From: an uncultured Desulfobulbus sp.
Lineage (GTDB): Bacteria; Desulfobacterota; Desulfobulbia; Desulfobulbales; Desulfobulbaceae
Direction of reading: 5' to 3'
Length of the DNA stretch: 64,000 bases
Assembly (NCBI RefSeq): GCF_963664075.1
Contig: NZ_OY760916.1
Coordinates: forward strand, 496,001 to 560,000
In this document: piece by piece, positions 34,625-53,977 of the stretch
Layout of the letters: the number at the start of each line of letters is the position of its first letter
Position numbering within the stretch: the first letter of the stretch is position 1
The notes under the pieces: model-generated
The model's input: the letters and a program-made list of their open reading frames with translations, nothing else
Databases searched by the model: none
What the model was told of the DNA's origin: nothing
Translations under genes and position numbers: made by a program

Positions 34625-34661
34625 AAAAAAAAATGGTTACGCCTTTGGTGCTAGGCAAGGC
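34625..34661 (-). terminator. Possible terminator after the GGDEF-EAL gene
   Basis: Read on the minus strand, GCCTT and AAGGC (34657-34661 with 34641-34645) form a short stem overlapping the stop codon region, followed after 7 nt by nine T residues (34625-34633). The stem is only 5 bp, so termination may be partial. It would separate this gene from the HD-GYP gene. Confidence 0.38.
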
Positions 34662-36789
34662 TAAAGCTGCCGCTACGCAACCCCTGTTCAAATTGTTCTT
34701 TACAGATGGGGCGGCTGAACAGGTACCCCTGCAGTTCATCGCAGTCTATGGAGTTCAGCACATTCAGTTGTTCCTGGGTTTCCACCCCTTCGGCAATGAC
34801 CTTGAGGTTAAAACTTTTTGCGATCCCCACGATGGAGTTGAGCAGAGAGACAGAGTTATCCAGAGCGGAGATATTCTGGACAAAGGATTTATCAATTTTC
34901 AGTGTGGTTAAGGGAAAAATTTGGAGATGGCTCAGGGCTGAATAGCCGGTACCAAAATCATCAATGGCAATGGCGATCCCCATCTCTTTGAATTGCTGCA
35001 GGGAATCGACAGCCTCCTGGGTATTTTCCATCATGACCCGCTCGGTCAGTTCCAGCTCAAGGTATTCCGGTGCCAGTCCGGTGTCAGCGAGCACTTCCAT
35101 GATGCGGTTGGCCAGTTTTTTAAAGTTGACGTTCTGCCCGGAGATATTGATCGCCATACGACATCCCTCAAACAGACCGGCTTTGACCCAGGTGCTCGCC
35201 TGGGTGCAGGCCTGAACAATGACCCAATCGTTGATCGCGTGAATCAAACCGCTCTCTTCGGCAAAGGGGAGGAACTTGAAGGGGGGAATCAGTCCCTGCT
35301 CTGGATCCTGCCAGCGAATCAACGCTTCTACCCCGGTCATTTTTTGGTTTTGGTTGCAAAATTGAGGTTGATAGTAGAGCTCAAATTCTTTGTTTTCCAG
35401 GGCTCGTCGCAGGCTGTTGGCTAACTGGAAACGGGCATTGGCAGCATCGTTCATTTGACGCTGAAAAAATTTGTAGTTGTTGCGCCCCTGTTCCTTGGCC
35501 TCATACATGGCCGTGTCCGCATTTTTTAAAAGAATATCCAGGTTATCGCTGTCATCGGGATAGACGCTGATGCCCACACTGGCCGAAAGTGCAATACTCT
35601 GATCGTTCCACAGAATCGGCTGCTCAATGTTTTGGGTAATCCGCTCGGCAAGGGTAGCAATATGATCCAGCGAACTGAAGTTGGCAGAAAGAACCGTGAA
35701 CTCATCGCCACCAAGGCGGGAAATCATGGAACTTTCCAGGTCTGATTGCGTACGGGAGATAACATCGGATTGGCGCAAAACCGTTTTGAGCCGCTCCGCC
35801 ACCGTGATCAAAACCTTATCGCCAACGGGATGCCCCAGGGTATCGTTGATGCGTTTAAAGTGATCCAGGTCAATAAAAAGGACGGCTATTTTTTTGCCAC
35901 TGCGTGCTGCCTGAGGCTGAATGGTGGTCCAGTGTTCACGAAACAGCGTGCGATTGGCCAGGCCCGTGAGGTTATCATAAAAGGCCAGGTAGCGAATTTG
36001 ATCCTCGGCCTGTTTCAGCTCAGTTATATCCTGAACAACTCCTACGATCATGGCAGGGGATCCTTTGCGATCAAGGACAATTTCCCCCTGATTGAAAATG
36101 ATGCGTTCCTGGCCATTGGGGAGAATTATGCGATAATTCAGCGAAAAAGATTTTCCTGCACCCTGAGCTTCAGCAATCAGTTGTTTGACCTGATGTTGTT
36201 CGGAGGGGGCTATTCGTTGAAACAGGGAGGTATACTCGTTAACGTCCTGGATGCCGAACTGTTCCGGATTTTGGGCAGATATATGAAATTTACCGCTATC
36301 CAGGTGCAGCTCCCAGTGGCCAAGGCGTGCAATCTCTTGTGCTTTAAACACCCGTTGTTGGCTGAGCTTGAGGTCATGGAGAATGGATCCCGAGCGCAGC
36401 CAGTAACGAACGCGGTAACCAAGCACCAGCATGTTAAGTGGCTTGCTGACAAAATCTGTTGCTCCGGCATCAAAGGCACTGGTGATGGTTTCCGAATCCT
36501 CCAGACCTGTCACCATCACAATGGGCGTATGTTCGCCCCCTGCGGTTTTACGAAGCTGGCGACAGGTCTCAAACCCGTCGATATCCGGCATGATGATATC
36601 TAAAAAAATAAGAGCAGGTGGCTGCTCGGCAAACAGCTCCAACGCGGCTTCGCCACTGTCCGCCTCCACGACCTCATACCCTGCATTTTCCAGGGTAAAA
36701 CGAAGCTGGAGACGAGCTGAGAAATCATCGTCAACCACCATGATCAGTGGTCGTTGTTCATCGGGGATAATCGTGTGTTGCTGAGTCAT
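34651..36789 (-). CDS. REC-PAS-GGDEF-EAL response regulator, bifunctional c-di-GMP enzyme
   Basis: 712 residues. REC (about 14-135) with Asp64 in FLDIIMPDIDG; PAS (about 150-270); GGDEF domain with an intact RLGGDEF; EAL domain with ALIRW, NISGQ, ELTERV, DDFGTGYSAL, TLKIDKSFV, EGVET and QGYLFSRP, all catalytic positions present. The usual RxxD inhibitory site (RQSD) is displaced from GGDEF by about 12 extra residues. Both synthesis and breakdown of c-di-GMP are possible, with phosphorylation deciding. It starts 15 nt after the hybrid kinase gene 36805-39888, a likely cognate sensor. Confidence 0.94.
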   Translation of the reverse strand: MTQQHTIIPDEQRPLIMVVDDDFSARLQLRFTLENAGYEVVEADSGEAALELFAEQPPALIFLDIIMPDIDGFETCRQLRKTAGGEHTPIVMVTGLEDSETITSAFDAGATDFVSKPLNMLVLGYRVRYWLRSGSILHDLKLSQQRVFKAQEIARLGHWELHLDSGKFHISAQNPEQFGIQDVNEYTSLFQRIAPSEQHQVKQLIAEAQGAGKSFSLNYRIILPNGQERIIFNQGEIVLDRKGSPAMIVGVVQDITELKQAEDQIRYLAFYDNLTGLANRTLFREHWTTIQPQAARSGKKIAVLFIDLDHFKRINDTLGHPVGDKVLITVAERLKTVLRQSDVISRTQSDLESSMISRLGGDEFTVLSANFSSLDHIATLAERITQNIEQPILWNDQSIALSASVGISVYPDDSDNLDILLKNADTAMYEAKEQGRNNYKFFQRQMNDAANARFQLANSLRRALENKEFELYYQPQFCNQNQKMTGVEALIRWQDPEQGLIPPFKFLPFAEESGLIHAINDWVIVQACTQASTWVKAGLFEGCRMAINISGQNVNFKKLANRIMEVLADTGLAPEYLELELTERVMMENTQEAVDSLQQFKEMGIAIAIDDFGTGYSALSHLQIFPLTTLKIDKSFVQNISALDNSVSLLNSIVGIAKSFNLKVIAEGVETQEQLNVLNSIDCDELQGYLFSRPICKEQFEQGLRSGSFSLA

Positions 36790-36804: not shown

Positions 36805-39800
36805 TTATGCAAGAACTCCAGCAAGTCCCTGCCTGAGCTTTGAGAGAAGGTCTGGAACCGGTTTGTTTTGCTGGGCTACTAAGTGAATTTCCTGGGCCAG
36901 TTCCGCCCAATGGGTGAGCCCACATTGGAGCAGGGTTCCTTTGAGAGTATGCACAGCCTGTGCAAGCGAGGCGAACTCACCAGCCTTTTGTGCTTCGAGG
37001 GCTGTATCAAGTTGGAGGCTTACGCTTTGACGGGCTGCCGTAATGATTTTTTCGATTTGCTGTGTGGTGAGCATGGTTGCCTGCTGGAGGTAGCCCTCAA
37101 TATGTGCAACTGTGGCGGGGGCCCCAGGGAGCGATGTACAAGGTAGCGGGGGGGGGGGCACGACCGTTGCCTGGAGAGGCTGGGACTGGTCACTTTGGGT
37201 AAGGGTTCGCAGTACCTGATTGAGGCGATTGATATCAAAGGGTTTACTGACATAGGCATCCATTCCGCTTGCAAGGCAGATCTCATCATCCCCCCCCATG
37301 GCGTGTGCGGTCATTGCAACCACCGGTAGATGAACTCCGCTGAGTTTTTTGCGTAAGAGCTGTTCTACATTGTGGGGGAGATTGATTTCCAGCGGCTTCC
37401 CTGCCTCCAGGGAGCGTATGATCGTTGTCGTTGCCAGGCCATCAAGCGTTGGCATCTGTACATCCATTAACACCAAATCAAAATGGCCAAAGGCCAGGTT
37501 GATCAAGGCCTCGATGCCATTGGTCGCAGTGGTGATGGCATGGTCCTGTTCAAGCATCATTCCGGCGACTTCACGATTGACCTCGTTGTCGTCCACCACC
37601 AGAATACGCAGGCGTGGCAAGGTGGACTGTTCGAGCGTTTCCTCCTGTTCTGGTACGGGATCCGGTGCAAAACTGGGTTCAAGAGGGATTAGGCATTGAA
37701 AGGTACTGCCCGCATCCAGGGTGCTTTGGGCATGGAGTGTACCGCCCATGAGGGCCGCAAGCTGGGTAGAGATCGCTAACCCCAGCCCGGCACCCCCATG
37801 TTGGCGGGCATAGGAGGTGTCAATCTGTTCAAAGCGATTAAAGATGCCACTGAGTCTATCCTCGGGAATACCAATTCCAGTGTCTTTGACCAAGAGGGAA
37901 AGTTGAGCCTCGTTTCCCGATCCGAGCTGGGTTACCTGCAGGCGAACTGAGCCTGAGGCTGTGAATTTAATGGCGTTGCCCAGAAGGTTGACCAAAATTT
38001 GACGAATACGGTAGGCATCTCCCCGAATCCATGACGGCAGGTGCTTGTCATAATCAAGGTAGAATGCTAGGCCTGTGGCGTCAGCCTGCACTCCCATGGT
38101 TTCCCAGACAGAGTCAACGAGCCGCCGAAGATCAAAAGGTGCAGGATGGAGTTCCAGTTGGCCAGCTTCCATTTGGGAGACATCAAGAATATCACCTAAG
38201 AGCGCGAGGAGGTCCTGGGCCGCATCTTTAACCGTTGCCAGACAGTACTGTCTTTTTTCTGGCTCATGGGTCTCTAAGGCCAGGTTGGTCATGCCAAGAA
38301 TGGCATTCATGGGAGTGCGGATTTCATGACCCATGTTGGCCAAAAATTGTGATTTGGCAATATTGGCGGTTTCAGCCTCTTCTTTGGCTTGGATCAGGTC
38401 CAGTTCTGCCTGTTTGCGTAGGGTGTTATCCCGGCCAACCCCTGCATACTCGCGAAGGTTGCCTTCCTGATCAAAGATTTTTCGATCGGTCCAGTGCAGC
38501 CATCTTGTTTCCTGGCCAGGGAGCTCGATGCAGTATTCATAACTGCCCACTGGATTTTCTTTGGTCAGGGAAGCCAGCAGCTGGAGTTTGGTTACACGGT
38601 TTTCAGCAGACATATGGGGCTTGAAATCTTGTCCGATCAGCTGCTCTCTGGTTTTTCCAAAAAAACGACAAAAAGCCTGGTTGACAAAGGTCACCGTCCC
38701 GTTTGGCAGATAGCGGCAAACCAGTTCGGTTTGATCCTCGACGATAGCTCGGTATCGACTTTCGCTTACCTCAAGGGCCTGCGCGTGTTCGACGGCTTCC
38801 TGTTCCCTTTGCTTAAGTCGATTGGCCATCTGGTTACAGGCTGCTGCCAGCTGATCGAGCTCCAGCGGGCCTCTGCAAGCAATTGGGGAATCCAGGTCAC
38901 CCTGGCTGATTCGTTTGACCCCCTGCTGAAGAGCATGGAGGGGATCAAGGAATTGTCGTTTGAGCAGGGTACGTACAACCAGCGTGCCGATAATACAGGT
39001 GAGCAGGGCAACCGTCAGCATGATAATCAAAGCCTGTTTACTGGCATGGTAGGCATGATCTAAAGGGAGTTCGATTACGGCAAACCAGGGGGTGTCAGGG
39101 ATGGCCATGAAGGTGGCAAAGATCTCTTCCCCTTGCTGATTGCGAAATTGGCCTTGCCTGATTGGATTCGCTGGTTGCCAGGGCAGATTGTGTTGGGCGT
39201 AAACTAATTTTTTTGCGAACCGATTTGGAGGAGAATTATTGAGGTTATGGACAAGAATATCCCCCGAATCGTTGATGATAAAGGCCGCGCCACATTGCTT
39301 GAGGTTTAATAGAGAAATTATATGTTGGAGGGGGGAGCATTTGAGGAGGCAGGCCAGGACTCCCCCACCATCTATGGGGATGGAGAGCACCAGGTTGTTC
39401 ATTGAGCTGTTTGTATCGTTGAGGGTGCCGATAAACGAGTTGCCTGAACGGGCATCAAGAAACCAGTCGATCTGGGAGTAGGAATCGAAATGGTCGAGAA
39501 CACCTTGGCCGCCGGCAGAACTCGCCAGAACCTGGCCTGCATGGTTGAGCTGCACCAGCTCAAGTAAGATGGGATGTCGGGTTCTGAGCGTATTGAATTC
39601 GTCGAGCCGTTTAGTAAATTCATCCAGACCAAAGATGTTTATCACATCCAGCAGACTTCGTTGCTGGACGATAAAATCGCTAGTGGCCTGAACCACACGT
39701 AGGATTGCATTGTGTTGTCGTCTCTGCCATCCCTCTTGCTCGGTGGATCGAGTCAGGAAAAAAAGTCCGGAGATACCAGCGGTCAACAGAAGAACAAGGG

Positions 39801-39888
39801 CAATCGCAAACACAAGCAGGAGCTGGCGGCGCAGGCTTTGCGGAAAAATGCCTTTGGAGGCGGAAGATGTTTGCTGGTGTACCTGCAT
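36805..39888 (-). CDS. dCache-HAMP-PAS hybrid histidine kinase with REC and Hpt
   Basis: 1027 residues: TM1 about 22-48, a periplasmic Cache-type sensor to about 280, TM2 about 285-308, HAMP, PAS (378-500), HisKA with His521 ([10 protein letters not shown], Gly replacing the usual Ser), HATPase ([16 protein letters not shown]), REC with Asp809 (LMDVQMPTLDG), and Hpt with His980 ([11 protein letters not shown]). The receiver carries a 21-residue insertion before the AMTA strand, shared with two other kinases of the cluster. The REC-Hpt linker contains four prolines encoded by an 11-C tract. The gene has its own promoter and is followed at 15 nt by the GGDEF-EAL regulator. Confidence 0.94.
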   Translation of the reverse strand: MQVHQQTSSASKGIFPQSLRRQLLLVFAIALVLLLTAGISGLFFLTRSTEQEGWQRRQHNAILRVVQATSDFIVQQRSLLDVINIFGLDEFTKRLDEFNTLRTRHPILLELVQLNHAGQVLASSAGGQGVLDHFDSYSQIDWFLDARSGNSFIGTLNDTNSSMNNLVLSIPIDGGGVLACLLKCSPLQHIISLLNLKQCGAAFIINDSGDILVHNLNNSPPNRFAKKLVYAQHNLPWQPANPIRQGQFRNQQGEEIFATFMAIPDTPWFAVIELPLDHAYHASKQALIIMLTVALLTCIIGTLVVRTLLKRQFLDPLHALQQGVKRISQGDLDSPIACRGPLELDQLAAACNQMANRLKQREQEAVEHAQALEVSESRYRAIVEDQTELVCRYLPNGTVTFVNQAFCRFFGKTREQLIGQDFKPHMSAENRVTKLQLLASLTKENPVGSYEYCIELPGQETRWLHWTDRKIFDQEGNLREYAGVGRDNTLRKQAELDLIQAKEEAETANIAKSQFLANMGHEIRTPMNAILGMTNLALETHEPEKRQYCLATVKDAAQDLLALLGDILDVSQMEAGQLELHPAPFDLRRLVDSVWETMGVQADATGLAFYLDYDKHLPSWIRGDAYRIRQILVNLLGNAIKFTASGSVRLQVTQLGSGNEAQLSLLVKDTGIGIPEDRLSGIFNRFEQIDTSYARQHGGAGLGLAISTQLAALMGGTLHAQSTLDAGSTFQCLIPLEPSFAPDPVPEQEETLEQSTLPRLRILVVDDNEVNREVAGMMLEQDHAITTATNGIEALINLAFGHFDLVLMDVQMPTLDGLATTTIIRSLEAGKPLEINLPHNVEQLLRKKLSGVHLPVVAMTAHAMGGDDEICLASGMDAYVSKPFDINRLNQVLRTLTQSDQSQPLQATVVPPPPLPCTSLPGAPATVAHIEGYLQQATMLTTQQIEKIITAARQSVSLQLDTALEAQKAGEFASLAQAVHTLKGTLLQCGLTHWAELAQEIHLVAQQNKPVPDLLSKLRQGLAGVLA
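37148..37158. repeat. Homopolymer of 11 G (11 C in the coding strand)
   Basis: The longest mononucleotide G/C run noticed in the window. It lies in the kinase gene 36805-39888 between the REC and Hpt domains and encodes the Pro run of VVPPPPL. A one-base slip would shift the frame and remove the Hpt domain, so it is a candidate phase-variation site. Confidence 0.85.
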
Positions 39889-39944
39889 TTTTTCCAGAGA
39901 ATGAATCCTGGTTGATTGTTGACCCCATTGAAATATTTTTACTG

Positions 39945-39973
39945 ATTATAGCCGTAAGAGAAAGAAAAGTGAA
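39945..39973 (-). promoter_or_regulatory. Sigma70-type promoter of the 1027-residue hybrid kinase gene
   Basis: On the minus strand TTCACT (39973-39968) and a perfect TATAAT (39950-39945) are 17 nt apart. The expected start is near 39938, about 50 nt before the gene's ATG. An inverted repeat overlaps the -35/-10 spacer. Confidence 0.5.
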
Positions 39974-39986
39974 AATACTCTCTTAC
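39954..39986. repeat. Inverted repeat straddling the -35 element (possible operator)
   Basis: Perfect 8-bp arms: GTAAGAGA (39954-39961) and TCTCTTAC (39979-39986), with 17 nt between them. One arm lies in the promoter spacer and the other upstream of the -35 box, a geometry typical of repressor or activator sites. It could also be an RNA hairpin behind the gene at 40007-42985, but no U-tract follows. Confidence 0.5.
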
Positions 39987-40006
39987 AAATTATAAGACCA
40001 GGTGAA

Positions 40007-42985
40007 TCATTTTGGTGAGGAAGGTTTTTTATCAAGCAGGTCTCGAATAACCCGTGCCAATTGGTTGACCGTAACTGGTTTGAGGAGCAGGTCTTCTACC
40101 CCATATGTAGAAAAATCTTCTTTGCTCATTCCTTCATTGTGACCCGTGCAGATGATAATGGGAGGGGCTGCGTTTTGTGATTGAAGTTGCTTGGCCAGTT
40201 CCAATCCGGTGAGATTGGGCATGGCCATATCTGAGACAACGAGGTCTACCGAACTTGCGTTTTCCTGGAGATAAGTCAACGCCTCCTGACTGTCGGTAAA
40301 GCCTGTGACCTGATATCCCAAACCTCGCAATATTTCTGTGCCGATATCGACAAGAAAACCCTCATCATCGATATAGACAACGTGCTCATGCCCAATGGGA
40401 ATGGTTTGCTGTTCAACGGTTGGCTGCATTTCTTTTTCCTGAATTGCGGGAAGGTAGAGAGTGAAGGTGGTTCCGAGCCCTATCTGCGAGTCGACCGTGA
40501 TTAAACCATACATGGCCTTGACAATACCATGCACCATGGAGAGCCCCAGTCCAGTTCCTTCCCCTTTTTGTTTTGTGGTAAAAAAAGGATCAAAGATACG
40601 TTCCAGAATCTGCTCATCAATGCCTTTCCCTGTGTCGCTTAGAGTAATCTGTGCATACTCGCCTGAGGTTAATTCGGGGTGGCGACTGGTAAAATCGCTA
40701 TCGAGGTGAACGGTTTTCAGGGAGATGGTCAGAGTGCCTCCATTTTCTTTCATGGCATGACCAGCGTTGGTGCACAGGTTCATAAAAACCTGGTGCATCT
40801 GAATTGGGTCGGCCTGAACCACGGGGTGACCGCTGATTTCAGAGGTTATGCTGATGGTTGCGGGAAGACTCACTCGGATGAGTTGGAGCACATCATCCAG
40901 CGTTCGGGTAAGACTGACGGGTTGACGTGTGCTCTCGCTTTGTCGACTGAAGGTGAGCATCTTCTCAATAAGGCTGCGGGCACGTTCTCCAGCGGTCAGT
41001 ATATTTTTGAGATTGTGGTAACTTTTTTCATGTTCGTCAGGGGGGAGGTCTCGAAGGATTATTTCGGTGTATCCAATGATACCTGCGAGAATATTGTTGA
41101 AATCATGGGCAATGCCACCGGCCATGGTTCCGATAGCCTCGAGTTTTTGTGTCTGGCGGATTTTTTTTTCCAGCAGCACCCGTTTGGTATCGTCGAAAAT
41201 ATAGCCACGAATAAACTGCAACTGGTGCTGCTCGTCGAATTCACCGATGAGGTTGCAGATGATGTAGACCTCCTGACCGTTTTTGTGCTGCATGACCCCT
41301 TCATACCTCTCAAGCGTCTCTTTTTCCATCACCCGTTGCAGCAGAATCTGCCGTTTATTGGGATCACTGTAAAAGGTGGTCATGGGCAGCCCGATGATAG
41401 AGTCGGGAGTGTCGTAGCCCAGCATCTGGGCAAAAGCCGGATTGCAGTCGATGAGAAAGCCTTCTTTGGAAGAAATAAAGTTTCCAGTGAGGTCCTGTTC
41501 AAAGAAGCGTCGATATTTTGCTTCACTTGCAAGGAGCTCCGCCTGCATGGTTTTGATATTGGTGATGTCAATAAAACTCTCGACCAGGAGCGTCTGTTCT
41601 CCCCGCTCGATACGATTAACGCTTTTGAGCACAGGGAGCGTGGAACCGTCGGCAAGCAGGATAACCCGTTCACTTAAATTGACCTGTTCACCCTCGTCCA
41701 GTACGGGGCAGCAATAGAGCTCCTTGGGACAGATAAAGCGGTGACAGCTCTGGCCAATAATCTCTTGAACCGAACGTCCGGCCATTTCCGCACCGGCACG
41801 GTTGATGGAGAGGATCTGCCGAGTCTTAGTGTCCACCAGCATGATGCCGCAGTTGATCGAGTTGATGATATCAGCAAGATGCTCTTCGTTTTTAGCCTGA
41901 ATGGCCTGCAGGGTTTGCAGGGAAGCGAGCATGTCGTTGATCCCTTCAGCCAGCGATCCTATTTCATCGGCAGCGGTTACCGTGACGCGTAGGGAACTCT
42001 CTCCCGCCTCGGCAATATGAGCAACTTCCCTGTTCAGCCGGGTCAGGCGATGGAGGATTATACGGTTTAAGAGCACGACAAGTGCCAGAATACAGATGCC
42101 CCCCAGGGCAACCAGAAAGCGGGAGTGGTTTTTCCAGATGGCCATCCCCTGTTGAAAGAGGGCACGTCGCAGGCTCAGCGAGAGAATCACCACCGGCTTG
42201 TTGTTGAAATCGTTAAGGCGTACCAGAGCGCGCAGGTGCTCCTCGTCTTTTATCTGAAAGGCCACCGGCAGGGGTGTTGGAGAAAGTGAAAACTGGTAGC
42301 GAGTCCCCTGGTCAAAGAGTTTCTCGTAATCGCTGGTCTTTTGCAGGGCCTGAAGGTCGAGTCGGGTGTGTGAGGCGATCTGCTCAAGGGTTACTTTGTC
42401 AAGATACCGGCCAAAAACAAGCGTTCCCCGAACGGGGCCTTCATAGGTGGAGGTGACAATCGGAGCTGAGGCGATAATTGCTGGCAGAGAAGCGGTGCGA
42501 AGCAGACCGGATTTCATCTCTTGAGTGGATGAAAATTGAAACAGATTGTGCAAAGCGCCAAGCGAGTGGATCACACTTACGTCGGGTGCGGTCACCTGAG
42601 CCCGGCTGAGATCATAAAAACGGCTGTAAACCAGATCATTGCTGGTGTTAAAAAAGAGGACAAAATGAATGCCCAGGGGATGGAATTTTTTCTCGGTCAA
42701 GTGAATATTGATATAGTCTTTGTTGAGGTCCTGAACAAAGGCGTGGGTTTCATCCCAGGAGGCCCAGTCGCTCACCAGGATCTCCAGTTTTTTTTGGACA
42801 TTGCCAAACTGGTTGATAGCCCGTTCCAGATTGAGCCGGGCTTCTGTCAATTCAAGGGTCTTAAATCTGTTGTTCACCAGCGAATAGGAAAAGGTGAGAA
42901 AACTCACCGTTAGCACGACCAGGAGCGTACAGACGATAAGCAGCGTTTTACTGAGAATACCGAGATGGAGGGGTGTTTTCGACAC
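40007..42985 (-). CDS. CHASE4-HAMP-PAS-PAS histidine kinase with terminal REC
   Basis: 992 residues: TM1 about 10-33, a periplasmic CHASE4-type sensor (LVSDWASWDETHAFV near 69-83), TM2 about 287-307, HAMP, PAS1 (370-485), PAS2 (490-605), HisKA with His627 (GGIAHDFNNIL), HATPase (DTGKGI, GTGLGLSMVHG), and REC with Asp919 (VVSDMAMPNLTG). PAS1 contains a cysteine-rich segment (SCHRFICPKELYCCPVLD) that may bind a metal, cluster or cofactor. There is no Hpt, unlike its neighbours. GTG is the start, with AGGAG about 7 nt before it. Confidence 0.93.
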   Translation of the reverse strand: MSKTPLHLGILSKTLLIVCTLLVVLTVSFLTFSYSLVNNRFKTLELTEARLNLERAINQFGNVQKKLEILVSDWASWDETHAFVQDLNKDYINIHLTEKKFHPLGIHFVLFFNTSNDLVYSRFYDLSRAQVTAPDVSVIHSLGALHNLFQFSSTQEMKSGLLRTASLPAIIASAPIVTSTYEGPVRGTLVFGRYLDKVTLEQIASHTRLDLQALQKTSDYEKLFDQGTRYQFSLSPTPLPVAFQIKDEEHLRALVRLNDFNNKPVVILSLSLRRALFQQGMAIWKNHSRFLVALGGICILALVVLLNRIILHRLTRLNREVAHIAEAGESSLRVTVTAADEIGSLAEGINDMLASLQTLQAIQAKNEEHLADIINSINCGIMLVDTKTRQILSINRAGAEMAGRSVQEIIGQSCHRFICPKELYCCPVLDEGEQVNLSERVILLADGSTLPVLKSVNRIERGEQTLLVESFIDITNIKTMQAELLASEAKYRRFFEQDLTGNFISSKEGFLIDCNPAFAQMLGYDTPDSIIGLPMTTFYSDPNKRQILLQRVMEKETLERYEGVMQHKNGQEVYIICNLIGEFDEQHQLQFIRGYIFDDTKRVLLEKKIRQTQKLEAIGTMAGGIAHDFNNILAGIIGYTEIILRDLPPDEHEKSYHNLKNILTAGERARSLIEKMLTFSRQSESTRQPVSLTRTLDDVLQLIRVSLPATISITSEISGHPVVQADPIQMHQVFMNLCTNAGHAMKENGGTLTISLKTVHLDSDFTSRHPELTSGEYAQITLSDTGKGIDEQILERIFDPFFTTKQKGEGTGLGLSMVHGIVKAMYGLITVDSQIGLGTTFTLYLPAIQEKEMQPTVEQQTIPIGHEHVVYIDDEGFLVDIGTEILRGLGYQVTGFTDSQEALTYLQENASSVDLVVSDMAMPNLTGLELAKQLQSQNAAPPIIICTGHNEGMSKEDFSTYGVEDLLLKPVTVNQLARVIRDLLDKKPSSPK

Positions 42986-43144
42986 GTGGAAGCTCCTGAT
43001 TACACTGAATAATGCTCAATCTGGACCAGTTTAACGATAAGGATACCATACAGTGTAACGAAATACCTGGAAGGCGAACAGGAAAGATCTCGGTTTTTTT
43101 TATTTTTATACCGTATTAACCCTATTGCGGGACAGACGCAACGA

Positions 43145-43175
43145 AGGTCCGGAGCCCACCTTGGGGCCCGGACCT
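43145..43175 (-). terminator. Strong hairpin downstream of the dCache chemoreceptor gene
   Basis: AGGTCCGG (43145-43152) pairs with CCGGACCT (43168-43175), and an inner GCCC/GGGC continues the stem around a 6-nt loop. It lies 46 nt past the stop of the chemoreceptor gene. No U-tract follows on the minus strand, so it may be a 3'-end stabiliser or a weak terminator. Confidence 0.45.
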
Positions 43176-43221
43176 CGTACACAGTCAGAAAGGAGAAACA
43201 AGACCCGAACGAGCCGGGAGC

Positions 43222-45327
43222 TTATGCCCGAACGGGATGTCCAAGGGGAACCCCGGCCTTCTTTTTCGCGGATTTCAGCTCTGCGTGGGGTGAAGCCAAT
43301 TGGGCTGCTTGGCCGTCGTCGGTCTTGAACTGCCCGACCAGGCTGTTGAGCTGCTCAGCGAGAACTGAGAGACCATGCGAGCTTTCACTGACCTGGCTGC
43401 TGTTAGTAAACATTTCACTGGCGATAGTGCTGACAGCGACGATATCCTGGGCGATATCTGAGGCGACAACCGAACTCTGGTTGACGTTTTCGTTGACCTC
43501 TCCGATCCCCTGAGCCATCTGGGTGACGTTGGTCGCGATTTCCTGGGTTGCAGCACTCTGCTCTTCCACGGCGGTGGCAATGGAACTGACCACGGTGTTG
43601 ACATCATTGATCACTTCATTGATATCTGAGATCTGTTGCACGGTAATGGCTGTGGTCCCCTGGATAGCGCCGACTTTGTCTTTGATGTCGTAGGTTGCAG
43701 CGGCAGTCTGTTTGGCCAGTTCTTTGATTTCGTTGGCAACAACGGCAAAACCCCGTCCGGCCTCACCGGCCCGGGCCGCTTCAATCGTGGCGTTTAAGGC
43801 CAGCAGGTTGACCTGCTCGGAAATTTCCGTGATGGTCTCAATAACCTTACCGATTGATTTGGCTGATTCACCCAGCTCATTAATATTGCCCGTGGCCTCG
43901 TTGGCCCGTTGAGCCGCATTACTGGAAATGGCGCGTGCTTTTTCCGCATGCTGGGCAATCTCGCCGATGGTCGCAGACATCTCCTCAGAGGCGGTGGCCA
44001 CGATATTGGTGTTGGTGGTCGACTGTTCCATGGCGGCTGCCACATTGTTCATGTTGGCGCTCATCTCTTCGGCAGCGGTGGCAACGGTGTTGGATTTATC
44101 CGAGGCCATTTGCGCTCCCTGATTCATCTGCTCCGAAATCTGGGAAAGCTGGGTCGAAGAGGCTGAGACCGTGTGGATACCGGCGGTCACATCACGGATA
44201 ATGTGCTGCAGCTTTTCAATAAAAAGGTTGAACCAGGTGGCCAGCTCGCCAACCTCGTCCTTGGTCAGGACGGCGAGGCGCATGGTCAGATCTCCCTCTC
44301 CCTGGGCAATGTCTTTGAGTCCTGAGACTGCGGCATTAATGGGCTGGACGATCTTACGAATGGAGCTGAGTAAAAGGATGGCGACAATGCCCAGAGAACA
44401 GCCCATGACGATCAGGGTGACGTTACGCAGGTGGTGCGAGGTTGCCAGAAATTCATCGCTGTTCTGGGTAAAGGCAATGGACCAGTTGTTCATGCCCACC
44501 GGAGCGAATCCTGCTATTTTGTGGATACCGGTGGAGGTGTATTCTTCGACGCCAACCTTGCCAGAGAGCATCTGTTTCATGATTATTTGCATCTCAGGCT
44601 CCTGTGCCAGGTTCTTGCTCAGGAGATATTCCGTTTTTGGATGGGCGAGAATAATGCCCTCATGATTGACCATGTAGGCATAGCCGGTTTGCCCCGAACG
44701 TCGACTAGGGATCAGGTCAATAAAGTATTGCGCTTTTAAGACCAGGCCAATGGTGCCGATAAATTGCCCCTTGGTGCTGAAAATGGGAGCAGATACGGGC
44801 ACGATGAGTTTGGAGGTCGCCTGAGAGCGGATCATTTCCCCGAGGCTGGCTTTGCCGGATTGTTTGACCCGAATAAAATTATCGTTTTGGGCAACCGACA
44901 CTCGGGCGTATTCTTCTCCGTTTTCTAAAATTCCGGTGAGAATGTTCCCCTGTGCATCGGCAACATAGAGCCCCTGATAGTTTTTATCGATATTGATACC
45001 GTGGAACTCATATTTCAAGCCCTCGTAGAGGTCACTAATTATTGGGTCGCGTTGCAGATTCACCCCCCCGGCCAGTTGCTCCATGGAGTGGATAACATCA
45101 CGGTTGTAGGCTAGCGAAGTGGACAGTTCTAGATCTGTCTTGAGGAGATTGGCAACCAGGCTCGCCAAATCGCTGGCCATGGTTTGTGCTTTTTCCTTGG
45201 AGATGTCCATTAGCGCTGTGGACGATTTGGATACGGCAAAAAAACCGACGATGGAAAGTGGCAACAGGACCGAGATAAGGCCCGTGGCTAAGAGTTTGAA
45301 CTGGATGGAACTGGCACGTAGTTTCAT
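43222..45327 (-). CDS. dCache methyl-accepting chemotaxis protein
   Basis: 701 residues: TM1 about 10-32, a dCache-type periplasmic sensor (about 40-290, with [19 protein letters not shown] near 216-234), TM2 about 305-325, HAMP, and a canonical MCP signalling domain with tip [20 protein letters not shown] followed by [16 protein letters not shown]. It should couple to CheA/CheW at the inner membrane. The C-terminal tail is basic, with no CheR pentapeptide. GAGGAGG stands about 8 nt before the ATG. A sigma54-type promoter lies about 67 nt upstream, next to the sigma54-dependent regulator gene. Confidence 0.94.
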
Positions 45328-45393
45328 GTTCTTCCTCCTCAGGTGGGGTGGTTTACGCTTTGCGCGAAACCGATCTGTATTTACCTTATTAGT

Positions 45394-45409
45394 AGCGATT
45401 CCCGTGCCA
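45394..45409 (-). promoter_or_regulatory. Sigma54 (-24/-12) promoter for the chemoreceptor gene
   Basis: Read on the minus strand the site is TGGCACGGGAATCGCT, against the consensus TGGCACG-N4-TTGCW: one mismatch, with the invariant GG and GC and the exact 10-nt spacing between them. It lies in the gap between the NtrC-type regulator gene and the chemoreceptor gene. Transcription would begin near 45383, leaving a leader of about 56 nt. Confidence 0.75.
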
Positions 45410-45450
45410 TTATGGATTATGTTGTAAATATATGTAAAGCCGGTGTGTTA

Positions 45451-45494
45451 GGGAGATGTCCCCTGGAAGTGGCTGCCCGAAATGACAGAGTGTC
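45451..45494. promoter_or_regulatory. Possible enhancer-binding sites upstream of the sigma54 promoter
   Basis: Two short imperfect dyads, GGGAgatgTCCC (45451-45462) and GACAgagTGTC (45484-45494), lie about 70-110 nt upstream of the predicted start, with centres about three helical turns apart. This fits the usual place of activator sites for NtrC-type proteins, but the sequences are short. Confidence 0.25.
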
Positions 45495-45531
45495 CGAAAA
45501 AAAAGGATGAAAGAGGAGGGAAATAGTCCGA

Positions 45532-46968
45532 TTATTCCGGACTGGAATCCGGTGCGTTGGTCAGACCGTGGATTTTGAGCAGATCATACAGCCGTGAACG
45601 GCTCAACTCAGAAATAGAGCAGGCTGTGGTAATATCACCTTCACTTGCGTGCAGCAGCATGTGCAGATAATGGCGTTCAATATCCAGCGTGAGTTGTTTG
45701 CGGTATTCCTTAAAAGGGAGCAGAGTATCCGGGAAACTCAGAGCAGGGGTGCCTAGCTGTTGTTCCTCTGCATCTTCAGCGTTTTTACTATCGACACGAG
45801 AGCGAATACGGGAGAGCCGAATTTCCGGAGGCAGATGGATGGGATAGAGGACTGGGTCGGCGGGGTCTGCGAGAATAGCTTTTTCCAGGGTATTTTCAAG
45901 TTCACGGATATTTCCCGGCCAAGAGTAGGCTGATAAAACTTCAAGGGTCTCCGGGACCACTCCTTTGATGGGTAATCTGTTGCGGCGGCAAAGGGTGAAA
46001 ACAAAGCTCATAACCAGTTTTTCCACATCCTTTTCCCGTTCTCGCAGGGGGGGCAGATGAATGTTAAAGGTATTGAGACGAAAAAAAAGATCTGAGCGAA
46101 AGGTGCCGTCCTCGACCATCTTGCTGAGATCTCGATTGGTCGCTGCAACCAGGCGAAAGTTGCTTTTTTGTTCTCTGTCTTTGCCCACAGGTCGAAAGAC
46201 CCGCTCCTGAAGAACGCGGAGAAAACTTTTTTGCGTTTCCAGGGGGAGCTCCCCAGCCTCATCCAGAAAGAGGGTGCCGCCGTCGGCTTGCTCAATGAGC
46301 CCCTTACTTTCGCTATTGGCGCCGGTAAATGCCCCCTTGGCATGACCAAAGAGGATACTTTCTACCAAATCTTTAGGGAGACTTGCACAGTCGACGACGA
46401 CAAAGGGTTGGGTGGCCCGTCCGCTATTGGTATGGATGGCACGGGCAAAGAGTTCTTTTTCAGTCCCTGTTTCACCGGTAATCAGCACTCCGGTTTCGGT
46501 ACAGGCGCAGTAGGCAACCTGATCCAGACAAGCGGAGATAGCCTTGCTTTTGCCGACGATCTCATCACGTTTGAGGCTGATTTGTTTGGAACGATTTGAT
46601 TTTTTTTCGTGGTATTCCAAGGCCCGGCGAATATGAAGCACCACTTCCTGACGGGAGAGGGGTTTTTGCAGGTAGTCCCAGGCACCGTTTTTTATGGCAA
46701 GTTCAGCACCGTTGGCATCGCCCATTCCGGTGATGATAATAACCTCGGGTGAGCTGGAGATGGACTGTATATAGGGGAGGGCATCCAGGCCATTACCGTC
46801 GGGAAGACTGACATCCAAAAAGATCAGATCAACCGGTTGCTCAGCAAGAAGAGCTTTTCCCTGTCTGATATTTTGTGCGGTTATGGTGCTATGACCAAGT
46901 GTGCGACAATACTCCTCAAGCAATACGCAAAAGGCAGTATCATTATCAATGATGGCAATTTTTCCCAT
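45532..46968 (-). CDS. NtrC-family sigma54-dependent response regulator
   Basis: 478 residues: receiver (1-120) with Asp52 (FLDVSLPDGNG), AAA+ domain (about 138-370) with GAFTGA at 212-217 (sigma54 contact), a Walker B region GGTLFLDEAGELP, the WPGNIRELENT motif, and a Fis-type helix-turn-helix at the C-terminus (LSRSRLYDLLKIHGL). The Walker A loop reads GETGTEKE: Glu170 replaces the usual Gly, which may reduce ATP use. It begins 15 nt after the 1161-residue hybrid kinase gene, its probable partner. A sigma54 promoter follows the gene, so the chemoreceptor gene is a likely target. Confidence 0.94.
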   Translation of the reverse strand: MGKIAIIDNDTAFCVLLEEYCRTLGHSTITAQNIRQGKALLAEQPVDLIFLDVSLPDGNGLDALPYIQSISSSPEVIIITGMGDANGAELAIKNGAWDYLQKPLSRQEVVLHIRRALEYHEKKSNRSKQISLKRDEIVGKSKAISACLDQVAYCACTETGVLITGETGTEKELFARAIHTNSGRATQPFVVVDCASLPKDLVESILFGHAKGAFTGANSESKGLIEQADGGTLFLDEAGELPLETQKSFLRVLQERVFRPVGKDREQKSNFRLVAATNRDLSKMVEDGTFRSDLFFRLNTFNIHLPPLREREKDVEKLVMSFVFTLCRRNRLPIKGVVPETLEVLSAYSWPGNIRELENTLEKAILADPADPVLYPIHLPPEIRLSRIRSRVDSKNAEDAEEQQLGTPALSFPDTLLPFKEYRKQLTLDIERHYLHMLLHASEGDITTACSISELSRSRLYDLLKIHGLTNAPDSSPE

Positions 46969-46983
46969 AGTCGTTGTGCATGG

Positions 46984-49900
46984 TTAGGGCTGATTTGAGG
47001 AAATCAGGGGGTGTAACTCCAGTTCCAGTTCGCTGATTAAGGTTGCATAGTCGAGCTCCGCCTGGTCAAGAATGCCGGTGTGGATAACCTGGGATTTTTG
47101 GGCCCAATGTTCAAGCCCGCATTGGAGTAGGGTACCTTTAAGGGTATGGGCGGCGCGTCCTAACTCTTCCCATTCTTTCTGCTGATGAGCCCTGGCAACC
47201 TTGACCAGACAGTCTTCTATGGAACGTACGGCAGCCTTCATAATCTTTTCGACCTGCTCGGGTTGGAGCATGGTGGTTTTTTGCAGATGCTCATAAATAG
47301 CCGCCTGCTGTGGCAGAACCGGGTGGGGAGAAGTTTCTTCAATGGGAGCGGGCTCTTGAGACTGTACCTCTTGGACTGGGTACCCGGTCAAGACCTCGAG
47401 CAGGACTGTATGCAGCTGATCAGGCTGAAAGGGTTTGGTGAGGTACTGATCCATCCCCACATGCAGGCAACGTTTGCGGTCCTCGTCCATGGCGTGAGCT
47501 GTCATGGCAATGATCGGCAGGTGATGACCAAACATTTTACGCCTCAGGGCTTTTTCCAGGCTCTGGGGCAGATGTACTTGTAACGGAGCTTCTGTTTCCA
47601 GGGCGCGGATGGCTTCGGTAGCAGCCATCCCATCCAGCAGAGGCATCTGTACATCCATGAGGACGACATCGATATCCTTCTCTGCCAGGAGTACAAGTGC
47701 TTCCATCCCGTTATTTGCGGTACTTACTTTGTGTTCCTGGGCCAGACTCATGCTGGCTACATCCCGGTTGACAGCGTTGTCATCGACGACCAGAATACGT
47801 AGCCCCTGCAGCAATTGTTCTCTGTTATTTTCAGGTATGTCATTCTCGCTTGTAACCTGCTCGTTTGAGGGCGGTAGTGAAATTTCGATATGAAAGGTAC
47901 TTCCCTGGTTTTCTCGGCTCTCAGCCCAGATGCGACCTTCCATCAGACTGACCAGTTCCGTACAGATAGCAAGCCCCAGCCCAGCGCCACCAAATTGACG
48001 TGCATACGATGAATCAGCCTGCTCAAAACTTTTAAAGATCCGGCCGATTTTTTCTTGGGCAATACCTATTCCTGTATCTGTCACCGCAAAATGGAGTCCG
48101 ATATGATTGTCGGAAGATGTATCGTTCTCCATTTGTTGGACGCTCAGGGTAATGGTGCCACTGGGGGTGAATTTGATGGCGTTGCCTGTCAGATTCAGCA
48201 GAATCTGACGCAGGCGCATATCATCGCCAAGCAATGTTTCAGGGAGCTGTGGGTCGATCTTGACCTGTAGTTTCAGCCCTTTTTCCATGGCGGGCATATT
48301 TAAGGTAGTGACAATACTGCCCATGAGACGCCGAAGCGAGAAAGGCTGAGGGGAGAGTTGCAGTTGTCCCGCCTCAATTTTAGAAAAATCGAGGATGTCG
48401 TTGAGCAGGCCAAGGAGACTTTGTGCCGATTGATGAACCGTTTTGAGAAAACGGAGTCGTTTTTTTTCGTTATCGACCTGCATAGCCAGGCTACTCATCC
48501 CAATGATAGCGTTCATCGGAGTTCGGATTTCATGGCTCATGTTGGCCAGGAAGAGGCTTTTGGCTTTGTCTGATTGCTCGGCGCGTTGTTTAGCCTCCTC
48601 AAGGGCGAGCATTGACTGGTTGAGTTGATCGGCCATGTCGTTGAGTGCTTGGCTTAGCTCACCAAGTTCGTCTCGGCTCTCAACTTGGAGTCGGGTGGCA
48701 AGTTGACCGGATTGAATTTTGCGAATGCCTTTAATAATAGTGGTGATTTTTCGGGTTAGGGTTGCCGCCATCCACACAGCGATCAATATGACCACTACGA
48801 TCATAATGCCGGTTGATACGCTCAGGTTCGATATAGTGGCTCGCAGGCGCTGCTCAATGTTTGTAAGTGTGGCCTGCCGCTTGTTTTCCAGGTTGCTCTC
48901 ATACTGGTGTGCAATCTCATCTATGGCGGCAGCGGTTTCATTGGCCGCACTGTGAAATTCATCCACATTGGCTCCGATGGTGACAAAACCAAAGCCCCGT
49001 GGAGTGTTGTAGCGACCGGTATGGTAGGGGATGGCGGCAGCAGTGGTCAGTTTCCATAGCTTAGACCAGAAAATAAGAAAGGAGCCCGAGCCCCCGTATT
49101 GCGTCAGGCTGTACCAGCCGCTGCATTGTGGTGCAAAATTGAGGTAACGACAGTCGAGTCCAAGCATTCCAGCCCGAGTCAGGGCGGAAATCGGTTTTTT
49201 GGCTAAACTCTGTTCTTGAAACAGGGGCGCATGCTGCTCAAACCAGGTGAAGGAGCCGTTGCTCTCTTGCCAGAGATCACTGAGATCGTTGCTGATCCAG
49301 GGCGCGGCTTGCTCACCTTTATTGGGGTCAAAACCAACAATAAAATAATCGCGGGGATGGGAAATATTACGCCCCAGGTCATCCCACATAAAGGCGTAGT
49401 TGCCTGATCCGGCATCGGAGATGTCTGAAAAGCGTTCAGTCGTGGGGATCGCATGATCGGTGAATTCCATGATATGGGTATGATCAAGGGCCATGGTGAC
49501 ATAACCGATTTTTCGGTTTCCCTTATACACGGGTGTCGCCCAGCGGATAATCCCTTGAAAACGTTTACCCACAGGATTTTCTTTACCTGCATATCCCGCC
49601 TCTTGGGGAGCATAAGGAATCCCTGCCTGAGCTGCCCGAGCAGGGGTGTAGGGGCCGATCAGGGGAGAAGGGAGATAGGGACCGATCACCCGAGAGACAT
49701 AAATCTCTCCCTGGTTAAGTTTTTTCAGGTCCTGAAAATAGGTCTCAGCCTTGCACCAGGTGTTTTCTTTTTTGCTGATGTCATGGAGTTCTTTCGGTAG
49801 CAGGTCGGTGGCTGATATTTTAATCTTTTCCTGACCCGTGAGATCGACAAAACTCATCTCGTGATAGAGGGGCTGCTCCTGCGCCAGTGGGGTGAGCTTG

Positions 49901-50469
49901 GGGATGGAGTAATGAAAATCCTTACGGTTATCCGGGGCTCCCGGTTCAACCTGGAGAGGTGTTATAGGCGTCGAGGCGATGGGCTCCCAATGTGATTTGT
50001 CGTCACTGAGCTGCCAGGGGGGGGGCTCTATGACCATGCGTTTGTGGAGTTCAAGAAAACGGCGGTAAGCCGCTGGAGTAACCGGTAGATCGGCAGCCAG
50101 GAGAATATCCCGATCTCTTGCAGTGAGAAAATCGGCAACGGCTGTGGCGATCTCTGTGGTCATGCGCTCGATACTTTCTCGTGCTTTCAGATCCAGTGCC
50201 GTAATGGAACTCTGGGTGGCAAGCTCACCGGTTTGACTGATTAACTCTTTGGTCTCGCTGACAATTGCATTGGAGCTTTTTTTGAAGGTATCGCCCAGCT
50301 CGCCGATCTGACGGGCGGCAAAGAGTGCCAGGGCGATAAGGGGGACGACCTTGATAACGATAAAAATCCCAACGAGTTTATCGCGGATTCCGATGCGTCG
50401 GAATTTTTGCAGTGATGATGAAGGCAGGGGAGGTTCCTGCATGTTGTGCTCAGTCTTTTCCGGAATCAT
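46984..50469 (-). CDS. Large-sensor hybrid histidine kinase with REC and Hpt
   Basis: 1161 residues: TM1 about 32-52, an exceptionally long periplasmic region (about 55-550) with a Cache-like core ([20 protein letters not shown]), TM2 about 553-573, HAMP, HisKA with His646 ([11 protein letters not shown]), HATPase ([16 protein letters not shown]), REC with Asp939 ([11 protein letters not shown]) and Hpt with His1108 ([11 protein letters not shown]). No PAS domain is present. The receiver has the 21-residue insertion shared with the kinases at 36805 and 50501. A 9-C tract lies in the sensor part (50017-50025). The sigma54 regulator gene follows at 15 nt. Confidence 0.94.
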
Positions 50470-50500
50470 TGGTTCTGTTGCTTATAAAAGTCAGCATTTT

Positions 50501-53500
50501 TTATGCAGATGGTGGTTTGAGCATTGTTTGCCCCTGGATCAGGGGAGCCAAGGCCTGGTGTAATTCGTCTAAAAGCTGCCCATAAGGCAGATTTCTGTTT
50601 TCTCGGGCTCCGTTGTAGATCGCCTGGGCCTTATCAGCCCAACTATTCAGACCGCATTGGAGCAGGGTCCCTTTGAGAGTGTGACAGGATCTTGCCAGGG
50701 TAGAAAAATCTCGCTGTCTGTGGGCCTGGGTGGCGCTTGCCAGGTGCTGGGCCATTGAGTTGCTGGCCGAGGCAATAATTCTTTTCAGCTGCGCCGGCTC
50801 AAGACGTGTTGTCTGGTGCAGATAGGTTTCGATGTCCTCAATGGTCGGCAGTGGCAGCTGCATTTGCTCGCCTGGGTTTGGACCTTGCTTCTGGTCCGTG
50901 ATCTGCGGAGTAAAAAGTTCATTGAGCACTTCTTGCAGATGGCCGGGTAAGACCGGTTTGGTCACATAGGCGTCCATGCCTGCCTGAAAACACATGTCGC
51001 GGTCACTGCCCATGGCATGTGCGGTCATGGCAACGATGGGCAAGTGATGGCCAAAGAGCTTTTGGGAAAGCATAGTGTCGAGTTTATGGGGGAGGGAATG
51101 TTTGGCCTTGTTTCCCTTTTCAAGACTTCGTATGAGTTTGGTGGTAGCCAGCCCGTCAAGCACCGGCATCTGGACATCCATGAGGACTGCATCAAAGTCC
51201 TCAGCGGCAATATGTTGCAGGGCTTCAAGTCCATCGCAGGCAGTTGTGACGGTGTGTCGCTGCTCCAGGGTGAGTCCGGCTACTTCGCGATTGACCTCGT
51301 TGTCATCGACAATCAGAAGCCGTAGGCCCAAGGTATCAGGACCATTTTTTTTAGTTTGCGTCTTGCCTTCCGCTTCTGCTTGCTCTTGACCGACTTCAAG
51401 GGTGAGAGTGAAATGAAAGGTAGAGCCTTGACCCTCGACACTTTCTGCCCATATCCGTCCCCCCATGAGGGTTACCAGCTGCTTACAGATCGAAAGTCCC
51501 AGGCCGGTACCGCCGAATTTACGTGCATAGGAGGTGTCGACCTGTTCAAAACTCTCGAAGATGAGACCGAGCTTTTCCTGGGCAATACCTATACCCGTAT
51601 CCTCGATCGCAAAATGCAGCGAGCACTGATTCTCGGCAGTAGGGGCGTCAACCCGTTCAAGGTGGAGGGTCACAAATCCCGTAGATGTAAATTTGATGGC
51701 ATTGCCCATCAGGTTGATCAAGATCTGACGCAGGCGCATGTCATCTCCAATGAGATGTGCAGGGATATCTCCTTTCTGGTCAATCCTGATTTCCAAGCCT
51801 TTCGTTTTTGCAGACACTTCCATGGTGGAGAGCAGGGCGGCTAGAAGACGATCCTTGGAAAAGGGGGCCATATTCAATTGCAACTGGCCGGCCTCCATCT
51901 TGGAGAAGTCAAGGATATCGTTGAGCAGGCCCAGCAGGCTTTCCGCCGATTGGCGCACAGTTTCCAGGAAACGCTGACGTTTTGCTTCTTCGCGGACCTG
52001 AGCTGCCATGTGGGTCATCCCCAGGATGGCGTTCATGGGGGTCCGAATTTCATGGCTCATATTGGCCAGGAATTGAGACTTGGCCTGATTTGCCGCCTCG
52101 GCGTTTTCTTTGGCTTGTCGCAGTGCTTTTTCAGCTGCTTTTAATTCAGTGATGATACGTCCCTCGGGCACCATAAGGATGACTTTGCCCTGTTCATCCA
52201 CGACCGGGGTAATGGTGAAATCGATAATTTCCTGGGTGCCGTCGGCCGCAACATGGGTTGTTTCAAAGCGGACGTGGTTCCCCTGGGAGGCGTGTTCGAG
52301 CTGCTCGCGCAGGTGTTGCTGATTTTCTGGATCGTGATTCCACCATGGGGTGAGCCAAATGGGACGCCCGAGGACATCGGCGGCGGCACTACCGATAAAA
52401 TCAAGCGCGGTTCGGTTGGCAGCGATTAAGGTGCCATCAGGCTCAAGCAATCCAATAAAGTTGAAACTATGGTTGAATATAGCTTGAAGTTTCTGTTCGC
52501 TTTTCTGGAGCGCTTCCTGTGCCTGACGCCGCTCGGTTATCTCATTGTTGGCCAAGTCAATCTGATTGTTCAAACGGATATGCAACGCCTGAATTTCTTT
52601 CACCATGGCTGAGTAACTTACACCTAACGCATCAAGTTCCTGGATGGCACTGAGGGCAAATTCGGTGTCATACCGACCCTTGGCAATCTGACCGGAGCGT
52701 TGGGCTATCTCTGCCACTGGCTCACTGATTGAGCGCGAAATACGCCGTGCATTGATGAGCAGGTAAAGAAAAAAGAGGATGTAAAAAAAGAGCATACAAC
52801 CAATAACGGTGTAGCCAATACGCTGGGACTGGTGCTCAAGTTCAGTAATAGGCTGGAGAATGCGTTCTTTATTGGCAAGCACCATGAGTTTCCAGCCTGT
52901 CAGCGGTTCAGTGGCTTGGGCAAGCACCATGGAGGCTTTCCCTATATGCAGATCGGCAACGGCCTTTTGCCTTGGCAAAAAGCGACTGATGGTTTCTGCA
53001 ACACCAGGGAGCTCTACTTTGAGCAGGTTGAATTCCGAGGGTTTATAGGTATCTTCGGCAACCTGCTCTTTATAGACGAACTCCCGCAACTCACTTAAAC
53101 CGAGCAGCTTTTCCACTGCCTGGGGCATGGCCATAATGGTACCTTGGCCGTCAACAAGAAAGGCTTCGGCACCCCAGGGGAGCTGGAGTTTGAGAATGTT
53201 ATCAAGGAAATTTTTTATGGTGATGTCAATCCCCGCTACGCCTTCAAGAAAGTCATGTCGGTAAATGGGGACAATGCAGGACATCATCCAGCCTTGACCA
53301 GCGGGGTCGAGGTAAGTCTCCGTCCAGACCGGACCTCTCTCAGGGTTATGTTTTTTATCGGCCAGGTAATAGAAGTTAAAGCTGGGGATATCCATGTTCG
53401 GTAGATACTGAGTATAGACATCCTCGATGAAAGGATAGTACCGGTTCATCGAATCATGGGTATTGAGATAGACCGCCACGATATTTTTGTTGGCCTGGTA

Positions 53501-53977
53501 GAGTTGTCGGTAGAGCGGATCAAGCACAGCGCTTCGAGCGGCTTTGTGTTTCTCTGCCGGGCCAATGGGCGTTCGTGCGGAATAATAGAGTGACCCTCCG
53601 CCGGTATTATTGGTCTGGTAATAGATGCCATTGTCGGCAAGGGCGAACTGCGGTCGTGGCTGAGAGGGAGGCGGGGAAAGATCGGGAGTGACAAAAAAAC
53701 GGCTGGTTTCATCCTGGAGGATCCGGGCCAGGGATTCAACACCGGCGAGTTGTTCCCCTAAAAGGCGTGATTGGTCATCGACAATTTCCTGGAGGTGAGC
53801 AACGCTTTCTGCCTCAAGGGTGGCAAGAGATTTTGTCTGGTTATGGTCGTTAATCCAGAAATAGAGGAGAACCAGGGCCAGTTCAATAACCAGGAGGGGG
53901 AGCAGTGCTGCTTTGCAGAATTCCCGAAATACAAAACTATCAAGTCTGGTCGGTGCGTGTGAGGCCATCCATATCAC
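50501..53977 (-). CDS. dCache-HAMP-PAS hybrid histidine kinase with REC and Hpt
   Basis: 1158 residues: TM1 about 23-43, a dCache periplasmic sensor (about 50-385, with [16 protein letters not shown]), TM2 about 388-409, HAMP, PAS (about 490-610), HisKA with His642 ([11 protein letters not shown]), HATPase ([16 protein letters not shown]), REC with Asp934 ([11 protein letters not shown]), and Hpt with His1099 ([11 protein letters not shown]). The receiver has the same 21-residue insertion as the other two trio members. GTG at 53977 is the longest start; the ATG at 53968 is an alternative, and neither has a clear SD. The next kinase gene begins 31 nt downstream. Confidence 0.93.

Follow-up and report, generated by a model that had tools for sequence, protein, structure and literature searches.

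Introduction

A bacterium that has well over a hundred receiver domains needs to keep its relays separate. Tripartite (unorthodox) kinases such as BarA/GacS carry HisKA, HATPase, receiver (REC) and histidine phosphotransfer (Hpt) domains in that order. Insertions between receiver helices and strands have been described elsewhere: the available part of one report gives 31% of fungal hybrid-kinase receivers at least 10 extra residues in the α2-β3 and/or α3-β4 connection, the inserts of Ssk1 being disordered, rich in Pro and Ser and variable in length (38 ± 16) (PMC8510515). In the accessible sections of PMC10779265, the potato cytokinin receptor StHK4 is said to have a longer α3-β4 loop, and those of PMC11253607 describe the α3-β4 loop of Bacteroides hybrid two-component systems as an inter-domain contact that was tested by mutation and contains a conserved His and Pro; a substitution there speeds phosphorylation. 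Here, we analyse three hybrid kinases, K1, K2 and K3, which share the domain order of BarA/GacS and carry a long receiver insertion. They are encoded on the minus strand of a 64,000-nucleotide stretch of DNA from an uncultured Desulfobulbus sp. (contig NZ_OY760916.1, positions 496,001 to 560,000; hereafter the window). An original prediction, made without database searches, saw in them an exchangeable output module with an identical receiver insertion that feeds several signals into one downstream regulator.

Results

K1 (1027 residues, 36805..39888), K2 (1161 residues, 46984..50469) and K3 (1158 residues, 50501..53977) are tripartite hybrid kinases by their Pfam matches, with HisKA, HATPase, REC and Hpt domains on one chain. 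K1 and K3 begin with a weak dCache-like sensor followed by HAMP and PAS domains, the dCache_1 match scoring under the curated Pfam cut-off in K1 and falling narrowly short of it in K3; K2 has a large periplasmic sensor followed by HAMP. The receivers (K1, residues 762-893, 37210..37605; K2, 892 to about 1028, 47386..47796, its end taken from AlphaFold; K3, 888 to about 1024, 50906..51316, from Pfam and alignment) score 71.7, 83.4 and 74 bits against Response_reg, for which the cut-off is 30.2, and the phosphoacceptor Asp, the switch Thr and the K-P columns are invariant in an alignment of nine receivers.

The distance from this Asp to the switch Thr is 51 residues in K1 (D809-T860), K2 (D939-T990) and K3 (D934-T985), whereas a nearby 1668-residue kinase has 30 in its second receiver, exactly as first measured. 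All three insertions occupy the same site, as predicted: the invariant IR..E of α3 precedes them and HLP follows before β4, which rules out different insertion sites. The inserted stretches (K1, residues 829-852, 37333..37404, bounded by IRSLE and HLP; K2, 959-982, 47524..47595; K3, 954-977, 51047..51118) contain the expected LP after the IRxLE helix and terminate in KxxGxHLP. Their identity is confined to length and position: in sequence, they agree at only 9-10 of the 25 positions compared (36-40% identity). The Hpt domains (K1, residues 959-1023, 36820..37014; K2, 1081-1151, 47017..47229; K3, 1073-1144, 50546..50761) do share, as anticipated, an identical motif of 11 residues starting at the Hpt histidine. 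The sensors differ, also as anticipated: at E <= 1e-4, each sensor region matches itself and kinases of other genomes, and none matches another of the three. Each kinase pairs with its own orthologue (67-72% identity) in a similarly arranged cluster of genome G147. Thus, K1-K3 are old paralogues, and a recent tandem duplication is ruled out as their origin.

How is the insertion conserved? We compared 67 distinct segments with spacing 51 (62 after 80% redundancy reduction) and found a mean identity of 26% in the insert versus 68% in the flanking receiver columns. Thus, insert length is conserved where sequence is not. What sequence conservation there is lies on one side of the predicted helix: model positions 87, 91, 94 and 95 are kept (L/I/V, L, R/K and L) and the rest are variable, a pattern with permutation p values of 0.006 for entropy and 0.04 for hydrophobicity. 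In model numbering, L91, L95, G97 and H99 are kept in 57, 52, 48 and 53 of the 62 rows. We also read the spacing in 108 distinct fetched receivers, a subset of all matches. It was exactly 51 in 62 of the 73 receivers scoring at least 160 bits (37/39 at 200 or more, 14/16 at 180-200, 11/18 at 160-180) and in 4/11 at 140-160, 2/16 at 120-140 and 0/8 below 120 bits; the search model was built from rows with spacing 50-51, so high scores favour spacing 51, a bias that tells against our reading of these counts.

To place the insertion among receivers, the genome of the window (one contig, 4.78 Mb) was searched with a profile of the three REC-Hpt cassettes. Seven proteins scored at least 191 bits and all others at most 64 bits; all seven have spacing 51, five with an Hpt domain and two ending at the receiver. 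The four additional proteins rule out an insertion confined to K1-K3. A general feature of receivers is ruled out too, as the seven stand against 157 Response_reg matches in this genome (split matches counted twice), so the insertion proved as uncommon as the original prediction required. In 110 loci, receivers detected by motif had spacing 51 in seven cases, 52 in one and 65 in one; L004 and L031, which have spacing 51, and L035, with spacing 50, escaped this motif.

Searches of other genomes extended this picture. At least one match was found in 16 of 23 genomes of the genus (E <= 1e-36), G057 having spacing 52. Across the order, 150 of 242 genomes matched at E <= 1e-30, with at most 16 candidates per genome scored and with receivers of spacings 42-44 included. 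In a phylum sample, 27 of 395 genomes matched at E <= 1e-36, nine of them in the window's order; the best-match spacing of the other 18 was 51 in five, 53-55 in four and another value or none read in the rest. Among the 50 genomes behind named loci, which were selected for holding relatives, nine matched at E <= 1e-34: those of L031, L032 and L035 (Desulfobulbaceae or Desulfobulbus), a Desulforhopalus with spacing 51, a Magnetococcales bacterium with spacing 50, and two Desulfobacterales, a Desulfonema and a Rhodocyclaceae genome with spacings 36-52 and unlike insert sequences. Different spacings, for example 42-46, 53-55 and 60, occur in further receivers from the order and phylum. These searches show that the insert is a trait of a receiver subfamily, apparently centred on Desulfobulbales, and not special to the window.

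Two further observations concern other receivers. The insert of L228 (Magnetococcales), with spacing 50, is similar although it lies outside the window's order, perhaps through transfer. Receivers with spacing 60 form another family in the order (L122, L168, L270, L271, L273), near which a 43-45% identical REC-GGDEF-EAL regulator is encoded, adjacent in G013 and about 5 kb off in G027 and G071.

An AlphaFold model of the K2 REC-Hpt segment (mean pLDDT 93.8, pTM 0.89) predicts the insert to be an ordered extra helix in the α3-β4 connection: residues 85-95 of the model (969-979 of K2) form a helix with pLDDT of about 98 between α3 (63-75) and β4 (102-106). A 542-residue core model reproduces this helix. 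The top structural matches of the receiver include GacS D1, with many plain receivers close behind. The original prediction had put the insertion beside the β4 switch Thr, where it could tune phosphotransfer; the model instead joins it to the N-terminal end of β4, the far end of that strand from the Thr. Receiver fold topology places the α3-β4 connection at the pole opposite the Asp and Thr of the active site, where the two ends of the domain's chain lie too. Likewise, the Ssk1 α3-β4 loop is treated as opposite the active site in the available part of PMC8510515, and the REC-Hpt interfaces described in the accessible portions of PMC11224324 and PMC7467158 involve α1 and the β1-α1, β3-α3 and β4-α4 loops, in one case also β5-α5. 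Thus, fold topology and described interfaces place the contacts elsewhere, and the insert is near the switch Thr in sequence only; the structural argument of the original prediction thus fails.

Is the inserted receiver part of a cassette? We studied 40 regions, a hand-picked part of the inserted-receiver matches, and assembled 48 inserted kinases, each kept if it had a spacing of 50-52, a HisKA motif in the same open frame and a new protein end (L201 and L032, among others, are left out). Pfam detects an Hpt domain in 37 of the 48, and the sensors across all 48 include CHASE8 (10), dCache_1 (9), dCache_3 (4) and others. Conversely, a back-translated KGTLLQCG pattern, taken as a signature of the Hpt motif, matched at 20 sites, spread over 8 of the 23 genomes of the genus, with no match in the reversed control; each of the 20 sites has an inserted receiver 245-687 bp away. 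This coupling is one-way, as 11 of the 48 inserted kinases have no Pfam Hpt and others have related motifs such as KGSLLQCG. In a tree of the kinase core, whose bootstrap had not settled, a single clade of the ten CHASE8 kinases was rejected (p-AU 0.0015 in the approximately unbiased test, L221 left out); with L221 as an eleventh row, chosen once the tree had shown it to be sister to a CHASE8 row, p is 0.0003. For the K1-type and K2-type sensor groups, single clades on this tree were not rejected (p-AU 0.33 and 0.41), so sensor exchange rests on CHASE8. The sensor variety, the CHASE8 result and the 20/20 coupling support an exchangeable output cassette with differing sensors. This part of the original prediction therefore stood; the single regulator did not gain the same standing, and the cluster contains three candidates.

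The CHASE8 loci have a constant neighbourhood. Genes for a TonB-dependent receptor and YfiR (DUF4154) lie directly upstream of the kinase at all ten CHASE8 loci of the 48-kinase set (L185, L189, L194, L196, L200, L204, L205, L207, L209 and L211), which look like a YfiR system with a relay kinase as partner. At L221, this gene pair is found about 1.7 kb ahead of the kinase frame. In the window's genome, L185:2019-3814 holds pieces in separate frames that match a TonB receptor beside the intact gene, perhaps a decayed copy; their G147 counterpart is a long open frame (L200:19-3183).

Three response regulators on the minus strand of the window are candidate partners. A REC-PAS-GGDEF-EAL protein with GGDEF and EALIR motifs (34651..36789) follows K1 after 15 bp, an NtrC-type regulator with REC and a sigma-54 activator domain (45532..46968), candidate partner of K2/K3, follows K2 after 15 bp, and a REC-HD-GYP-type regulator (Pfam HD_5; 33454..34584) lies in the same cluster. 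Hence K1 adjoins the GGDEF-EAL type and K3-K2 adjoin the NtrC type. With four candidates scored per genome, orthologues of the GGDEF-EAL regulator (57-83% identity; next best 45%) were found in 10 further genomes of 242 in the order; within the genus, each genome with the regulator has a single copy. In 7 of these 11 genomes, this one included (G000, G147, G009, G008, G110, G125, G228), its gene lies beside an inserted kinase or one gene away, and the partner has a K1-type sensor in G000, G147 and G009 and a CHASE8 sensor in G008 and G110. In G042 and G216, the inserted receivers found are on contigs other than that of the regulator (G216 being cut where its contig stops); for G005 and G181, the contig carrying the regulator ends close by.

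Within the genus, whose genomes are not independent, the GGDEF-EAL regulator was found in 6 of the 8 KGTLLQCG genomes and in none of the other 15 (Fisher p 0.0003). HD-GYP orthologues (at least 77% identity) are present in three genomes, all of them KGTLLQCG genomes. Presence of the insert alone does not significantly track the GGDEF-EAL regulator in the genus (6/16 vs 0/7, p 0.12).

The surroundings are rich in signalling genes. Window positions 24630-63960 hold a long minus-strand run that includes kinases, a methyl-accepting chemotaxis protein (MCP), GGDEF-EAL, HD-GYP and NtrC-type regulators. A 1120-residue protein at 55883-59245 looks CheB-CheR-like by eye.

Discussion

The extra-helix receiver is a real, lineage-wide variant with a testable role. 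What could that role be? On balance, we lean towards an explanation in which K1-K3 are tripartite relays that pass through an extra-helix receiver and a shared Hpt to a regulator of the cluster, the helix bracing its own relay. Signals of the different sensors would lead to phosphorylation of the HisKA histidine, then of the receiver Asp and then of the shared Hpt type, an order suggested by the domain families. The Hpt would in turn phosphorylate a response regulator encoded separately in the cluster, most likely an enzyme for synthesis or degradation of cyclic di-GMP (c-di-GMP). The extra helix would be anchored through its conserved Leu and Arg/Lys face at the receiver pole opposite the active site, where it would most likely act as a brace between the receiver and its own kinase, linkers or Hpt. 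Such bracing could set the geometry and strength of the internal relay and leave the phosphotransfer site untouched. The inter-domain contact made by the α3-β4 loop of the Bacteroides systems, as given in the available part of PMC11253607, may by analogy be counted in favour of bracing.

Several observations weigh against this explanation. Pfam detects no Hpt in 11 of the 48 inserted kinases and two of the seven inserted proteins of this genome terminate at the receiver, so the helix is not dependent on an Hpt. The 542-residue core model has a pTM of 0.52, which makes its domain arrangement unreliable, and the conserved helix face could equally be a partner site. We consider it unlikely that the helix confers specificity by serving, in all these kinases, as the docking site of another protein (regulator, scaffold or other kinase). 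The kept length and the single conserved face would suit such a site, and fungal Ssk1 is hypothesised to bind its target via the α3-β4 insert (available part of PMC8510515), but the remaining helix positions vary strongly among members, and the helix also occurs on receivers that lack Hpt and have different neighbours. Inherited structural decoration, fixed by descent and with a role limited to domain stability, seems doubtful to us, if a reading worth keeping in sight: the helix marks a lineage, the insert sequence is poorly conserved and spacings differ in further receivers from the order and phylum, yet length is far better kept than sequence and the four positions L91, L95, G97 and H99 are retained in most rows.

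The output of the relay is a separate question, on which further points tell against a common c-di-GMP regulator. Orthologues of the NtrC type (at least 71% identity) are present in 6 of the 8 KGTLLQCG genomes and in one of the remaining 15 (p 0.0017; genomes non-independent). Thus, a c-di-GMP output is indicated but no one regulator is singled out, because the NtrC type tracks the Hpt almost as well. G010 and G002 have KGTLLQCG kinases, and no GGDEF-EAL orthologue was found in their assemblies, which are in hundreds of contigs; moreover, gene linkage and co-occurrence do not amount to phosphotransfer. It is quite possible that the cassette serves several regulators, each kinase its neighbour, K1 the GGDEF-EAL type and K2/K3 the NtrC type. 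The 15 bp gap to each neighbour and the same neighbours in G147 also fit this arrangement. Against it, the identical 11 residues from the Hpt histidine in K1-K3 leave little room for different partners, and in G009, which has just two inserted kinases, one K1-like and one CHASE8, the NtrC type is encoded on the contig of the K1-like kinase, 12-14 kb off. The opposite extreme, in which helix and motif-bearing Hpt form an insulating cassette, the helix locking receiver to Hpt, that lets up to five kinases with unrelated sensors signal to the REC-PAS-GGDEF-EAL regulator with no cross-talk to the cell's many other receivers, appears very unlikely; if true, it would make an ordered receiver insert a pathway insulator. 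The GGDEF-EAL regulator provides a concrete c-di-GMP candidate for a common output, and the extra-helix subfamily is a natural system in which to test insulation by structure away from the phosphotransfer surface.

How do K1-K3 compare with known systems? From BarA/GacS they differ by the predicted ordered α3-β4 helix and by their 11-residue Hpt motif. Fungal Ssk1 and hybrid-kinase receivers have an insertion in the same loop; in contrast to the Ssk1 inserts in the available part of PMC8510515, those of K1-K3 keep their length and are predicted to be helical (pLDDT about 98) and not disordered. Among solved structures, the best sequence match is the Arabidopsis AHK5 receiver (4EUK), with one alignment continuous across the insert, but the insert sequence is not alike and the Hpt partner of AHK5, AHP1, is a separate protein. 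In the Bacteroides systems, the output is a fused DNA-binding domain, and the accessible sections of PMC11253607 do not mention an extra helix; among Pfam matches of K1-K3 (E <= 1e-3), no DNA-binding domain follows the receiver.

The CHASE8 members recall a further system. YfiN is a CHASE8 diguanylate cyclase. As in YfiBNR, a YfiR homologue is encoded directly upstream of the ten CHASE8 kinases; unlike the diguanylate cyclase of YfiBNR, the CHASE8 partner in this family is a relay kinase. A search of open-licence papers on Desulfobulbus kinases, on YfiR with a hybrid kinase and TonB, and on α3-β4 insertion returned nothing on this family. The tripartite hybrid kinase, the ordinary receiver fold and α3-β4 insertions in fungi are thus known parts; what appears new, within that literature, is a bacterial subfamily in which a predicted helical insert of kept length is tied, in the genus, to one Hpt type.

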